This document shows, in pieces, positions 8,057 to 32,052 of a stretch of DNA of 32,052 nucleotides. Source of the stretch: a virus. The notes under the pieces were generated by a model. The model worked only from the letters and a program-made list of their open reading frames with translations, had not been told where the DNA came from and did not search any database. The stretch covers positions 1 through 32,052 of the IMG/VR virus record IMGVR_UViG_3300021963_000017; one strand, written 5' to 3'. Each line of letters starts with the position of its first letter. Within the stretch, counting starts at the first letter, position 1. The position numbers and the translations under genes were made by a program.

Positions 8057-8094
8057 GTGCCTTTAAACCCCTCTGGCTTGCCCTAGGAGGCGTT

Positions 8095-8114
8095 TTGACT
8101 GCCGCCTAGTCTTA
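8095..8114 (+). promoter_or_regulatory. Start-associated 20-bp element, copy 3
   Basis: This is an exact consensus copy, 38 bases downstream of the terminator, ending on the A of ATG 8114. Because a strong terminator lies just upstream, this copy is the best place to ask whether the element starts transcription. No -10 box at usual spacing is visible. Confidence 0.8.
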
Positions 8115-18734: not shown

Positions 18735-19032
18735 TCTTCTGATCGCGGTCGCCTTCCTGGCGGTTACCGCCGGCCTGACGTCTTTTGCGGCCGCCTATAT
18801 TGCCGGCTTCGTCCTGGATAAGACCGGCGACTCCAACGCTATGGCGCTTCTGATCGGCGCTAACCGCGTCGCCAGCGATTCGGCCGACCTGGAGCGTCAG
18901 CTGAATTCCGCCCAGGCCGCCCTTAAGTCCGTCCAGGAACTAGGGTGGGCTATGACTATCGGCTGCCTAGGGATTGCCTTTTCGGTAGGGGTCAAGGTCT
19001 TCCGTCGTCCCGACAATCAAAACGCCTCCTAG
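18697..19032 (+). CDS. Two-TM membrane protein of the lysis cassette
   Basis: This 111-residue protein has TM1 at about 13-40, a short helical region with coiled-coil character (DSADLERQLNSAQAALKS) in the middle, and TM2 at about 83-101. It overlaps the holin candidate by 38 bases in another frame, an arrangement often seen for holin/antiholin or spanin pairs. The loop between the TM segments would face the periplasm or the cytoplasm depending on orientation. No family is recognised. Confidence 0.5.
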   Translation: MANERPNGTGERNLLIAVAFLAVTAGLTSFAAAYIAGFVLDKTGDSNAMALLIGANRVASDSADLERQLNSAQAALKSVQELGWAMTIGCLGIAFSVGVKVFRRPDNQNAS

Positions 19033-19046
19033 AGCATTCTAGGGGG
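19025..19046 (+). terminator. Hairpin at end of the lysis operon
   Basis: CCTCCTAGA - GCAT - TCTAGGGGG forms a 9-bp stem with one G-T pair. It covers the TAG stop of the last lysis gene. No T-run follows, so termination would need a factor; it may instead be an mRNA-stabilising hairpin. Confidence 0.35.
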
Positions 19047-19052
19047 GTCTAA

Positions 19053-19078
19053 TCGACATATTCGGCCCCATATGTCGA
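19053..19078 (+). promoter_or_regulatory. 9-bp inverted repeat
   Basis: TCGACATAT - TCGGCCCC - ATATGTCGA is a perfect 9-bp inverted repeat with an 8-base spacer, a size and symmetry suited to a dimeric HTH repressor or to an RNA hairpin. It follows the lysis operon by 20 bases. Confidence 0.5.
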
Positions 19079-19110
19079 CGGGGTTTGGAAGGGGTTGTTT
19101 CCATAAAATG

Positions 19111-19137
19111 CCCGAACGGGAACTTTTGGAAACTTTC
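19111..19137 (+). repeat. Direct repeat copy A (control region)
   Basis: Copy A starts CCCGAACGGGAACTT and matches copy B at 21 of 27 positions. The two copies are 50 bases apart start to start, so they could be protein-binding sites arrayed on one face of the helix (about five turns). Each copy contains two GGAA(A)CTT-type units. Confidence 0.55.
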
Positions 19138-19160
19138 AGGGGGGAAACGTTCCAAACATT

Positions 19161-19187
19161 CCCGAACAGGAACTTAAAGGAACTTTG
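19161..19187 (+). repeat. Direct repeat copy B (control region)
   Basis: Copy B starts CCCGAACAGGAACTT. A GGAAACGTTCC near-palindrome (19143-19153) lies between copies A and B. This could be an activator or iteron-type replication site. Confidence 0.55.
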
Positions 19188-19245
19188 CAAAAGGATGTTG
19201 ACGGAATAAAAGTCACCGCCCAGGATTCTAGTCGAACCTACTCCT

Positions 19246-20201: not shown

Positions 20202-21080
20202 ATGAGCAAACCCACCGAAACCACGGACAAGGCGACCGTCGCCCTCCGCACCCGCCAAGCGGTCTATTTCCGCAAACGCGCCGCCCAAGCCGGTCCTGGC
20301 TACCAGCCCGGACTTGCGAGCTACGCCCTTTACGGAGTCGAAGACACCAAGTCCGGCGCCTTCCTGATCGGGGACGCGCCGACGTCCGCCGACTTCGCCC
20401 AATACATCACCGCCAAGGCGAAGGCCGCGGCGCTGGAGAAATGCGACGCGCTGATTGAATGGCGCGAAGTCACCAAGTCCAAGCCGGTCGTCCGCGTCTG
20501 GATCAAGGACGAATCGGAAAAGCCGGCCAAGGCCCGCAAGGCCTCCGGCACGGTCAAGGCCTACGTCGCCGCAAACCCGGATAAGTCTATCCGCGAAATT
20601 GCGGACGCCCTGGACATTCGCCCGTCGACCGCCTGGACGACCGCCAACCGGCTAGCGATGAAACTCCCGACGCCGGGGAACCGCAATACGCACGAAATCA
20701 ACGGCCACAAGATGAGCAAACTAAAGCACGACCGTATTATGGCCTTCAAGGCGCAGCTCCCGCAATTCGACGACGCGGAACGCCTTAACTCTAACGATAT
20801 CGCCGCCCGCCTTGGCTGCTCCGGCTCTAACGTCCGCTTCTGGCTGCGCATTCTCGGCCACAAGCTGAAGAACCATAACGGCCGAACCATCTTCAAACAC
20901 GATACCCGCACCTGGCCGGCCGTCTTCAAGCGGACCTTTAAGGACGGGACGCGAATCAACGGAGCCGCTAAAGCCCTGGGCGTTTGCTACGCGGTCGCCT
21001 ACCGTTACGCCGCCAATAACGGACTGATCTCCGTAAAGGAGCGCGATCAGAACAACCGCAAGTCGGCCAACCCCTATTAA
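20202..21080 (+). CDS. Multi-HTH DNA-binding protein, regulator candidate
   Basis: This 292-residue protein has a distinct N-terminal domain (about 1-105). At least two HTH segments follow: about 117-150 (TVKAYVAANPDKSIREIADA, then LDIRPSTAWTTANRL) and about 196-225 (NSNDIAARLGCSGSNVRFWL). A third, RINGAAKALGVCYAVAYRYA (about 251-270), looks like another DNA-reading helix pair. It may regulate early or late phage transcription, perhaps through the control region. It starts MSKPTE, a start shared with other early genes. Function is inferred only from the HTHs. Confidence 0.6.
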   Translation: MSKPTETTDKATVALRTRQAVYFRKRAAQAGPGYQPGLASYALYGVEDTKSGAFLIGDAPTSADFAQYITAKAKAAALEKCDALIEWREVTKSKPVVRVWIKDESEKPAKARKASGTVKAYVAANPDKSIREIADALDIRPSTAWTTANRLAMKLPTPGNRNTHEINGHKMSKLKHDRIMAFKAQLPQFDDAERLNSNDIAARLGCSGSNVRFWLRILGHKLKNHNGRTIFKHDTRTWPAVFKRTFKDGTRINGAAKALGVCYAVAYRYAANNGLISVKERDQNNRKSANPY

Positions 21081-22927: not shown

Positions 22928-23143
22928 ATGAAAAAGAATATTCCTAACGTCCCCCCTGTCGCGGAAATCCGACAGATTGAAGGAACGCCTTATATCATCG
23001 TCGACGGGAAACACGTCGCCCGCTTCCTGACCCCGACCGTCGTCAATAATAAGACCTATTTTAACCTGTTCCTTAACCCGAACGAAGGAAGCCGCCACGC
23101 GCTGGAAGACCTGGTCGAACAGAACCCCCGCCTTCGCAAATGA
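22928..23143 (+). CDS. Hypothetical protein
   Basis: This 71-residue protein is beta-rich (IRQIEGTPYIIVDGKHVARF, then VVNNKTYFNLFLNPNE) with a charged helical C-terminus. It sits between the resolvase and ERF genes in the recombination block, overlapping ERF by four bases, so it may assist DNA processing. No family is recognised. Confidence 0.5.
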   Translation: MKKNIPNVPPVAEIRQIEGTPYIIVDGKHVARFLTPTVVNNKTYFNLFLNPNEGSRHALEDLVEQNPRLRK

Positions 23144-23736
23144 GCAAAACCCCCGCCACGGCCACGACCGCCCGCCAGGACTTCGTCGGCTTCCTTAACG
23201 CGATCGGGAACGTCCACGCCGATAAGGTCAACCCGGCCTTTAAATCCCGCTACGCTTCCCTGCCCGAAATCCTGGACAGCGTTAAGTCCGTAGCGAAGGG
23301 GTTTAACCTGGCCGTCCAGCAAACCCTTTCCTCCAACGACGGGACGATCCGCGTAACGACTGACATTCTCCACGCCGACGGCTCCACCTTCCCCGGCGGT
23401 TCCGTTGCCTTCAAGTCGGACGGACTCAACCCCCAGCAGCTCGCGTCCGCGACGACCTATCTGCGCCGGCTTTGCCTTAAAACGGCCGTAGGCATAGAAA
23501 CGGACGTCGACGACGACGCGGCCGCCGCTTCCCGCCCTATGCCGGCCAAGCCCGCCGCCCCCGCCGGCCCCTGGTATTCTTTCCTTTCCGCCCTGGAAGC
23601 CGAACGCGCCCACGCCTATTGCGTTAAGAAGGGGTGGCTGCCGCCCTCCGCCGAAGACCTGGCCGAACTGCCCCAGGACAAGGTCGACGCGATCCTTTCA
23701 AATAAGGCCGCCTTCGTCTCCGCGATTAACCGATGA
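23140..23736 (+). CDS. ERF-family single-strand annealing protein
   Basis: This 198-residue protein matches the ERF recombinase wording throughout: VNPAFKSRYASLPEILDSVK, then KGFNLAVQQTL, TDILHADGSTF, LNPQQLASATTYLRRLCLKT and VGIETDVDDDAAA. ERF proteins anneal complementary single strands and promote recombination and genome circularisation. The C-terminus (about 140-198) is a Pro/Ala linker plus a helical tail. It starts MSKTP, like other early genes. It works with the RecE-like exonuclease encoded nearby (24774-25580). Confidence 0.9.
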   Translation: MSKTPATATTARQDFVGFLNAIGNVHADKVNPAFKSRYASLPEILDSVKSVAKGFNLAVQQTLSSNDGTIRVTTDILHADGSTFPGGSVAFKSDGLNPQQLASATTYLRRLCLKTAVGIETDVDDDAAAASRPMPAKPAAPAGPWYSFLSALEAERAHAYCVKKGWLPPSAEDLAELPQDKVDAILSNKAAFVSAINR

Positions 23737-24773: not shown

Positions 24774-25580
24774 ATGCCCCTGATCCAAACCCGCGACGAA
24801 TACCGCGCCCTTAAAGCGCTCAACTACTCTGGTAGCAAAGAGCTGCTTAAATCGGCCGCCCATTACCAGGCCTACCTGACCAAGCCCCAGGAAGAAACGA
24901 AGGCGCTTAAGATCGGGACGGCCGTCCACGCTTACGTCTTACAGCCGGACGTCGCCTTTGCGACCTACGCCGTCGCCCCCGAAGTCGACCGCCGCACGAA
25001 AGACGGGAAGGCCGCCTGGGAAACGTTCGTGGCCGCCAACGCCGGAAAAGTCGTCCTGACCGAAGACGAAAACGCCCTAGTCGCCGGCGTCTCTAATTCT
25101 ATGCGGTCGACCCTTAAGACCCTAGGAGTCGGCGCGGTCGCTACGGAACTTATGATCTCCGGCGAATACTGCGGAACGCCGGTTAAAGCCGCTATCGACC
25201 TGGTAGGTTCCGACGGCTACCTCTACGACCTGAAGACTTGCGAAGACGCTAGCCCGAAGGGTTTCCTTTCGGCCGTCCGCGCCTATCGCTATAACCTCCA
25301 GGCCTACCTTTACCGGCTCCTTTACGAACAACATAGCAAAACCAAGGTCCGCGGTTTCCGCTTCATCGCGACCGAAAAGGCCGGCGACGGCTTCTACCCT
25401 ACCGCGGTTTATGAGCTGGGGCCGGAGCTTATGACTTACGCAATTAGCGATTTCAATCAGGCCGCGACCCTTTACAAGACTTGCGCCGCCCTGGACGAAT
25501 GGCCGGCCTACCCGCTGGACGTGCAGACTATCGACGTCAACGCGCCGGCCAAGGCCGCCGAATCCATTAACTTTGCCTAA
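24774..25580 (+). CDS. RecE-like exonuclease (PD-(D/E)XK)
   Basis: This 268-residue protein belongs to the phage exonuclease VIII-like group. Visible signatures are GTAVHAYVLQPD (48-59), CGTPVKAAIDLVG (133-145, Asp142), YLYDLKTCEDASP (149-161, Asp152-x-Lys154) and YRYNLQAYLYR (171-181, the conserved QxxxY-type helix). It should degrade one strand of double-stranded ends to provide 3' tails for annealing by ERF. The size is typical for standalone RecE C-terminal domains. An SSB-like gene follows 9 bases later. Confidence 0.88.
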   Translation: MPLIQTRDEYRALKALNYSGSKELLKSAAHYQAYLTKPQEETKALKIGTAVHAYVLQPDVAFATYAVAPEVDRRTKDGKAAWETFVAANAGKVVLTEDENALVAGVSNSMRSTLKTLGVGAVATELMISGEYCGTPVKAAIDLVGSDGYLYDLKTCEDASPKGFLSAVRAYRYNLQAYLYRLLYEQHSKTKVRGFRFIATEKAGDGFYPTAVYELGPELMTYAISDFNQAATLYKTCAALDEWPAYPLDVQTIDVNAPAKAAESINFA

Positions 25581-31604: not shown

Positions 31605-32052
31605 ATGGCTAAAAAAGATAAAGACCGTTTAACGGAAACGACTTTGGACGTTATTTTTTCTACCGCGATGATCGAGGGAGAAACGGAAACGATGGAAGGA
31701 GTCAGCGCCCGCCAGATTCGCAACGCGGCGAAAGCCAATATGATTTCCCGACTGAAGAAACAAGAGGCGAAGACTTTCTTTGACCGGCTGCCGGCCGCGG
31801 GCGAATACTTCCACACAATCAGCAACGGCTCCTTTGATTATTGGTCCGTGCTTTCGGTGCTTATCGACCTTTGCCCCGCGCCGGTGGACGAAGCTTATAT
31901 TTCCACCTGGACGCTTAACCACAATACTTGCAAGGAACTGTTTGAAGTCCTGGACGCCGGCAAGGTCCGCAAGGTTTGGCTATTGTCGGGACTCTATTTC
32001 AAGAAACGGGAACCCGCGGTTTATGCCCGCCTAGCGACCGGCCTTGCGGAGC
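31605..32052 (+). CDS. PLD-like (HKD-family) protein, 5' part of the split gene
   Basis: The gene starts at ATG 31605 (MAKKDKDRLTETTLDVIFST), two bases after the previous stop. Codons 1-107 end at 31925, and bases 31926-32052 are the duplicate of 1-127. The reading frame then continues at position 128, giving 212 residues in all. The N-terminal part has helical segments and then YFHTISNGSFDYWSVLSVLI and WTLNHNTCKELFEVLD. The catalytic-type HAK/GSAN pair is in the other part (see 1-318). Confidence 0.75.
   Translation, partial: MAKKDKDRLTETTLDVIFSTAMIEGETETMEGVSARQIRNAAKANMISRLKKQEAKTFFDRLPAAGEYFHTISNGSFDYWSVLSVLIDLCPAPVDEAYISTWTLNHNTCKELFEVLDAGKVRKVWLLSGLYFKKREPAVYARLATGLAE
31926..32052 (+). 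repeat. Window-end duplicate, right copy
   Basis: This is the right copy of the 127-base end overlap. The nonredundant circle is 31,925 bases. Confidence 0.92.

Follow-up and report, generated by a model that had tools for sequence, protein, structure and literature searches.

Structures of HipBA on its promoter were reportedly presented by Schumacher et al. in 2015. As cited in one study (PMC7029023), E. coli HipB binds its operators together with HipA, which is believed to be held in check by dimerising within the promoter complex; for the C. crescentus hipBA1/2 promoters, the same study describes inverted repeats of identical sequence at fixed distances. In the Legionella HipBST system, operators O1-O3 are evenly spaced, with 53-bp gaps, upstream of the operon (PMC10653801). 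The locus described here is an intergenic gap at 19033-19245 of a 32,052-nt viral record (IMGVR_UViG_3300021963_000017; the window, hereafter, is this whole stretch). Like the hipBA promoter regions of E. coli and C. crescentus, it carries multiple palindromic, putatively HipB-binding sites at a fixed interval, but such copies occur in phages without hipB or hipA and usually without a promoter between them. The E. coli hipBA sites, read here as TATCC-N8-GGATA at 28/39/28 bp, belong to a different site class. Even spacing of HipB operators is also a feature of Legionella HipBST, whose sites nevertheless have another sequence, with six-base arms and gap, and serve chromosomal autoregulation rather than being phage-borne.

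Layout of the gap and its relatives

The window begins and ends with the same 127-bp direct repeat and is therefore probably a complete genome, circularly permuted or circular. An initial annotation of the gap, made from its letters, had listed two 27-bp direct repeats, a 9-bp inverted repeat, a hairpin over the last late stop codon and a near-palindrome (coordinates in Table 1). The direct repeats agree at 21 of 27 positions at a spacing of exactly 50 bp, which was not equalled once when the gap was shuffled 1000 times with dinucleotides preserved, and they can be extended to 32 nt at 78% identity (19105-19136 and 19155-19186). The arms of the 9-bp inverted repeat (19053-19061/19070-19078) match perfectly around a loop of 8 nt, and 22 of 1000 shuffles contained such a repeat; the hairpin, with 9-bp arms at 89% and a 4-nt loop, folds as RNA at -14.9 kcal/mol (z -3.0). 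The near-palindrome is also present, but it does not merely lie between the repeats, being an inverted repeat of 39 nt (72%) that takes in both of them. Beyond this list, each direct repeat contains a 14-bp palindrome of the form TTCCCG-NN-CGGGAA. These two copies, O1 and O2, each differ by one mismatch from TTCCCGNNCGGGAA, carry the half-sites TTCCCG/CGGGAA, and lie in direct orientation at a distance that agrees with the 49/50 bp (start to start) of the hipBA class discussed below.

Table 1. Positions of features in the window, and records of named phages carrying the pair
Feature	Position or record	Strand	Remarks
Terminal direct repeat, 127 bp	1-127 = 31926-32052		
42-bp block around hairpin CAAAACGCCTCCTAGRGCA, inverted copy	8063-8104	-	After capsid gene terminator; also in L016
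42-bp block, second copy	19011-19052	+	Over last late stop, 81% identical to the other copy; also in L016
Hairpin over last late gene's stop codon	19025..19046		Possible terminator
Inverted repeat TCGACATAT-N8-ATATGTCGA	19053..19078		Upstream of operator pair, separate from it
O1 operator copy TGCCCGAACGGGAA	19109..19122	+	TTCCCG-AA-CGGGAA, 1 mismatch; bacterial hipBA operons share sequence and 49/50-bp pairing
O1-O2 spacer, 36 bp	19123..19158		Inverted repeat AAACTTTC-AGGGGG-GAAAC; conserved in five pair-carrying relatives
O2 operator copy TTCCCGAACAGGAA	19159..19172	+	50 bp from O1
Predicted early promoter TTGACG-N17-CAGGAT	19198..19226	+	25 bp downstream of O2; TTGACG box in all relatives
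First early gene, 160 aa	19246..19728	+	No family match; under predicted promoter
Early-region recombination pair: ERF-family single-strand annealing protein, DUF3799 (PD-(D/E)XK) nuclease	23140-23736, 24774-25580		
cobS genes with embedded pair	L307 DSL-LC03, L308 S-WAM1, L311 S-RSM4		MoxR-like ATPase
phiCbK-like Caulobacter phages, pair right after tRNA-Leu cluster	L385, L386, L389, L390		Centre dinucleotides vary

In the syntenic relatives L016, L029, L025 and L039, the stretch from O1 through the spacer to O2 forms a conserved block while the upstream flank has mostly diverged, and the counterpart of O2 in the first three is TTCCCGAACGGGAA. The arms of the upstream inverted repeat are present in L025 and L029 and absent in L039, and L016 has a different inverted repeat in their place (GGGCGTCC/GGACGTCC); this element probably forms a hairpin or serves as another operator. 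A promoter scan of the 36-bp spacer gave no significant sigma70-like promoter, a weak test, since roughly three quarters of bacterial hipBA loci fail it as well. The early promoter itself is conserved across the relatives as TTGACG-N16/17. Two further syntenic relatives, L037 and L038, keep this promoter and its leader and lack the pair; the pair is thus a separable element beside the early promoter and not part of it.

These comparisons bear on the two functions proposed in the initial annotation. As an early promoter with operators, the gap does show a conserved TTGACG promoter and operator-like palindromes, but the sites match operators of HipB, which the phage does not encode, and the repeats are not needed for the promoter, because the relatives that lack them (a finding that the annotation itself had counted as adverse) retain it. 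The suggested binders, HTH proteins encoded at 20202, 21103 and 23733, do not behave as a cognate repressor, as none tracks with the pair: the first two are absent from the pair-carrying L039 and L025 (the latter a short fragment), and a homologue of the third occurs in the pair-lacking L037 and L038 and not in L039 or the L025 fragment. Their HTH assignment is itself a weak point, with sub-threshold HTH matches only for 20202 and no matching Pfam family for 21103 and 23733. The direct repeats, lying in a large gap that separates late from early genes, would also suit iterons of a replication origin or a packaging element, a function that we consider highly improbable: there are two copies only, no GC-skew switch occurs at the gap, no initiator family was found among the adjacent genes searched, the repeats are missing from the syntenic L037 and L038, and other phages place the pair differently.

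Operator pairs in bacteria and viruses

A scan for the pair at 49/50 bp over 84,980 bacterial and archaeal genomes returned 86 bacterial stretches, for which the chance expectation (estimated from pattern length) is far below one. They span Spirochaetes, Fibrobacter, Proteobacteria, Verrucomicrobia, Gemmatimonadetes, Elusimicrobia and others, and their loci encode an HTH protein of 70-90 aa, which often starts 5-20 bp away from the pair, and, after it, a larger one of about 410-440 aa. On example loci, Pfam identifies these as an HTH_3-type antitoxin and a toxin with HipA_C and Couple_hipA domains; HMMs built from the examples find HipB together with HipA at 71 of the 86 loci and HipB alone at another 9. 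In Caulobacter sp. 602-1, two 50-bp pairs precede hipBA. Judged by this adjacency of hipB and hipA, the pair serves a broad, widespread class of hipBA operons as their operators, and the same adjacency suggests that HipB is specific for it.

In IMG/VR, the pair at 49/50 bp occurs at no fewer than 116 viral loci representing at least 37 unrelated lineages. When spacings of 35-65 bp were allowed, 89 loci fell at 49/50 bp vs. about 17 at all other spacings (among the matches listed), and the viral matches at other spacings mostly stem from coding repeats, whose spacings are multiples of three. A separate scan of the whole collection with an AT-centred palindrome, independent of the exact letters of the window and run to completion, placed 44 of 59 stretches at 49/50 bp, and likewise 25 of the 37 lineages (binomial p ~1e-21). 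A chance or codon/composition artefact might be suspected, given that low-complexity coding repeats (e.g., PEPEPE) match looser patterns, but such matches lie mostly at spacings divisible by 3, a reversed-sequence control over the whole collection yielded 43 stretches with none at 49/50 bp, and two independent palindrome variants both peak there; we regard the chance of such an artefact as negligible. Low-complexity coding matches (PEPEPE, VPEQE, tandem repeats) were set aside as artefacts.

The viral pairs agree with the bacterial consensus also in the flanks outside the scan query, and each record has the pair once, with both copies on the same strand and further copies rare. They differ in gene neighbourhood: HipB is adjacent at 80 of 86 bacterial vs. 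1 of 116 viral loci (the latter among the matches listed; p ~1e-47), L134 being the sole locus with hipBA in this first viral set. Whole-record searches of 49 viral records, a type of record that is often a fragment, found 48 without HipA and 47 without HipB; the AT-centred matches include no HipA, and HipB-like matches at two loci, both at other spacings. Neither hipB nor hipA was found in the window, where the pair lacks the adjacent genes of a hipBA operon. A promoter between the copies is likewise less frequent, at 3 of 116 viral (among the matches listed) vs. 23 of 86 bacterial hipBA loci. Two records, L097 and L176, have the pair within coding sequence.

The pair could instead be bound by a phage-encoded protein, convergent with HipB in its DNA recognition or very diverged from it. 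Uncharacterised HTH proteins are indeed many in phages, and weak XRE-like HTH genes are seen in some carriers (G023; CcrRogue, E 0.0035). Yet HipB matches are missing from 47 of the 49 records and from eight complete named phages, the HTH candidates of the window do not follow the pair, and a shared binder would be needed for identical sequence and spacing across the 37 or more unrelated lineages. We consider such a binder improbable.

Several observations stand beside these counts. L032 and L034 carry the pair in an unrelated phage lineage, and the whole record of L032 is without hipBA; in L020, L021 and L030 the pair directly follows a tRNA gene. An RNA-hairpin reading of the palindromes was rejected, as the arms are conserved, the centre is free and either orientation relative to genes occurs; a known RNA was rejected too, an Rfam search having given tRNAs only. 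Searched with BLASTN against named phages, the gap gave no match; short-query BLASTN of the pair regions returned only AT-rich matches attributable to chance or short ones in the flanks, and an open-access literature search on the palindrome letters returned nothing relevant by title.

The host of the window may belong to the Verrucomicrobia, to judge solely from distant terminase similarity to the Verrucomicrobia phage P8625, from which the pair is absent. Of 388 Verrucomicrobiota genomes, only 3 (~1%) contained the exact pair, a fourth match not resembling an operator pair; the likely host group therefore does not commonly carry the operator.

Pairs within cobS and beside tRNA genes

T4-like cyanophages carry the pair within a cobS/MoxR-type ATPase gene, which is translated through the two copies in different frames, giving PVRE and VPFGN. 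Synechococcus phages S-RSM4 and S-WAM1 as well as DSL-LC03 contain the two sites at a 50-bp distance, the left one bearing two changes. The peptide VPFGN is encoded as GTC-CCG-TTC-GGG-AAC in 7 of 8 alignable phages, with a joint codon probability of ~4e-4 each, these phages being related to one another; rare codons are retained in the cobS pairs, and Prochlorococcus phage P-TIM40 is without the motif. A HipB search of eight complete named phages, including S-RSM4, S-WAM1 and DSL-LC03, gave no match.

A second setting is provided by the Caulobacter phages CcrBL10, CcrRogue, RBC8 and BL57, in which the pair follows a tRNA-Leu cluster. The centres are AA and TT in BL57 vs. AT in the other three, with arms and 50-bp spacing kept, so that BL57 and CcrRogue differ by compensated centre changes. 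The whole CcrRogue genome (223,720 bp) contains exactly one pair, at 50829-50892, and no HipA; its XRE-like HTH matches are all weak. No pair is present at the corresponding locus of phiCbK (examined there only) or CcrMagneto. Taken together, the cobS codons and the kept arms and spacing point to selection on the pair at the DNA level.

Proposed capture of a host protein

On balance, we lean towards the reading that the gap contains a hipBA operator pair in orphan form, by which host HipB or HipBA is captured and HipA is held inactive or its control disrupted. It is highly probable, on the likeness of the sites, that the phage copies are of HipB type and would be bound by HipB; whether HipA is thereby neutralised and the phage helped is about an even bet. 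In the proposed course of events, two HipB-dimer palindromes at the hipBA phasing of 49/50 bp, sitting in a phage without hipB or hipA, would be supplied in many copies of two-site DNA by infection and genome replication, and host HipB or the HipB-HipA complex would bind this DNA. The likeliest benefit would be that HipA is kept in an inactive DNA-bound assembly or that HipBA is drawn off its normal control, and the HipA kinase would then be unable to arrest translation during infection. Since HipA is thought to be restrained in its promoter complex, a two-site operator multiplied by a phage could hold it inactive. Extended to phages of many unrelated lineages, this would be a DNA-only countermeasure in which the single phased pair nucleates an inactive HipB-HipA-DNA assembly on phage genomes as they replicate and disarms HipA during infection, a generalisation that we advance tentatively and at somewhat less than even probability.

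Less likely than a DNA decoy is control of the early promoter by a host repressor, in which HipB or HipBA would serve the phage as a ready-made repressor or activator that reads the dormancy state of the host. The position of the pair here, 25 bp upstream of the TTGACG promoter, fits such control, as do TTGACA/TTGCAC-N17-TATAAT-like promoters that follow the second copy within about 12 bp in several AT-rich lineages and L058, and a third operator in L039, 49 bp beyond the pair and nearer the promoter. It is set against the retention of the promoter without the pair in L037 and L038, the location of the pair within coding sequence in cobS, L097 and L176 and after tRNA-Leu in CcrRogue, and between-copy promoters that are rarer than in hipBA operons; overall, we judge it unlikely but a serious rival. 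Because pairs occur inside genes and beside tRNAs, and few have promoters between the copies, we favour capture of a protein over gene control.

The presence of the pair in phages without the toxin genes suggests that a host system is decoyed or hijacked in a way previously undescribed; open-access literature on HipB, phages and decoys held no report of phage-borne hipBA operators. The role of HipBA beyond persistence is debated, and hipBA is not established in the open-access literature as an anti-phage defence; HipAD, a relative, is one (PMC13092281). If the countermeasure is real, HipBA would act against phages, and if dozens of phage lineages maintain the pair, even in coding sequence and through compensated changes, phages are under selection by HipBA. 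A classic persistence system would thereby be tied to phage infection, with a sequence signature for finding such phages. Caulobacter, which has characterised hipBA systems and existing hipBA1-3 knockouts (PMC7029023), offers a direct test bed, in which CcrRogue, CcrBL10, BL57 and RBC8 can be compared with phiCbK and CcrMagneto, which lack the pair at that locus.

Among known systems, the use of phage DNA with sites for a host-encoded repressor, as proposed here, has a parallel in CTXphi, which is controlled by the host repressor LexA; there, however, an SOS regulator acts at one promoter, whereas the phage pair belongs to the hipBA site class and is often located away from promoters. Phage-encoded means against host toxin-antitoxin systems are likewise represented by antitoxin mimics, namely T4 Dmd, which is directed against RnlA, and the pseudo-ToxI of phiTE. 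To our knowledge, a DNA operator decoy against a toxin-antitoxin system would be the first of its kind: Dmd and pseudo-ToxI act as protein or RNA, whereas the phage pair would do so as operator DNA.
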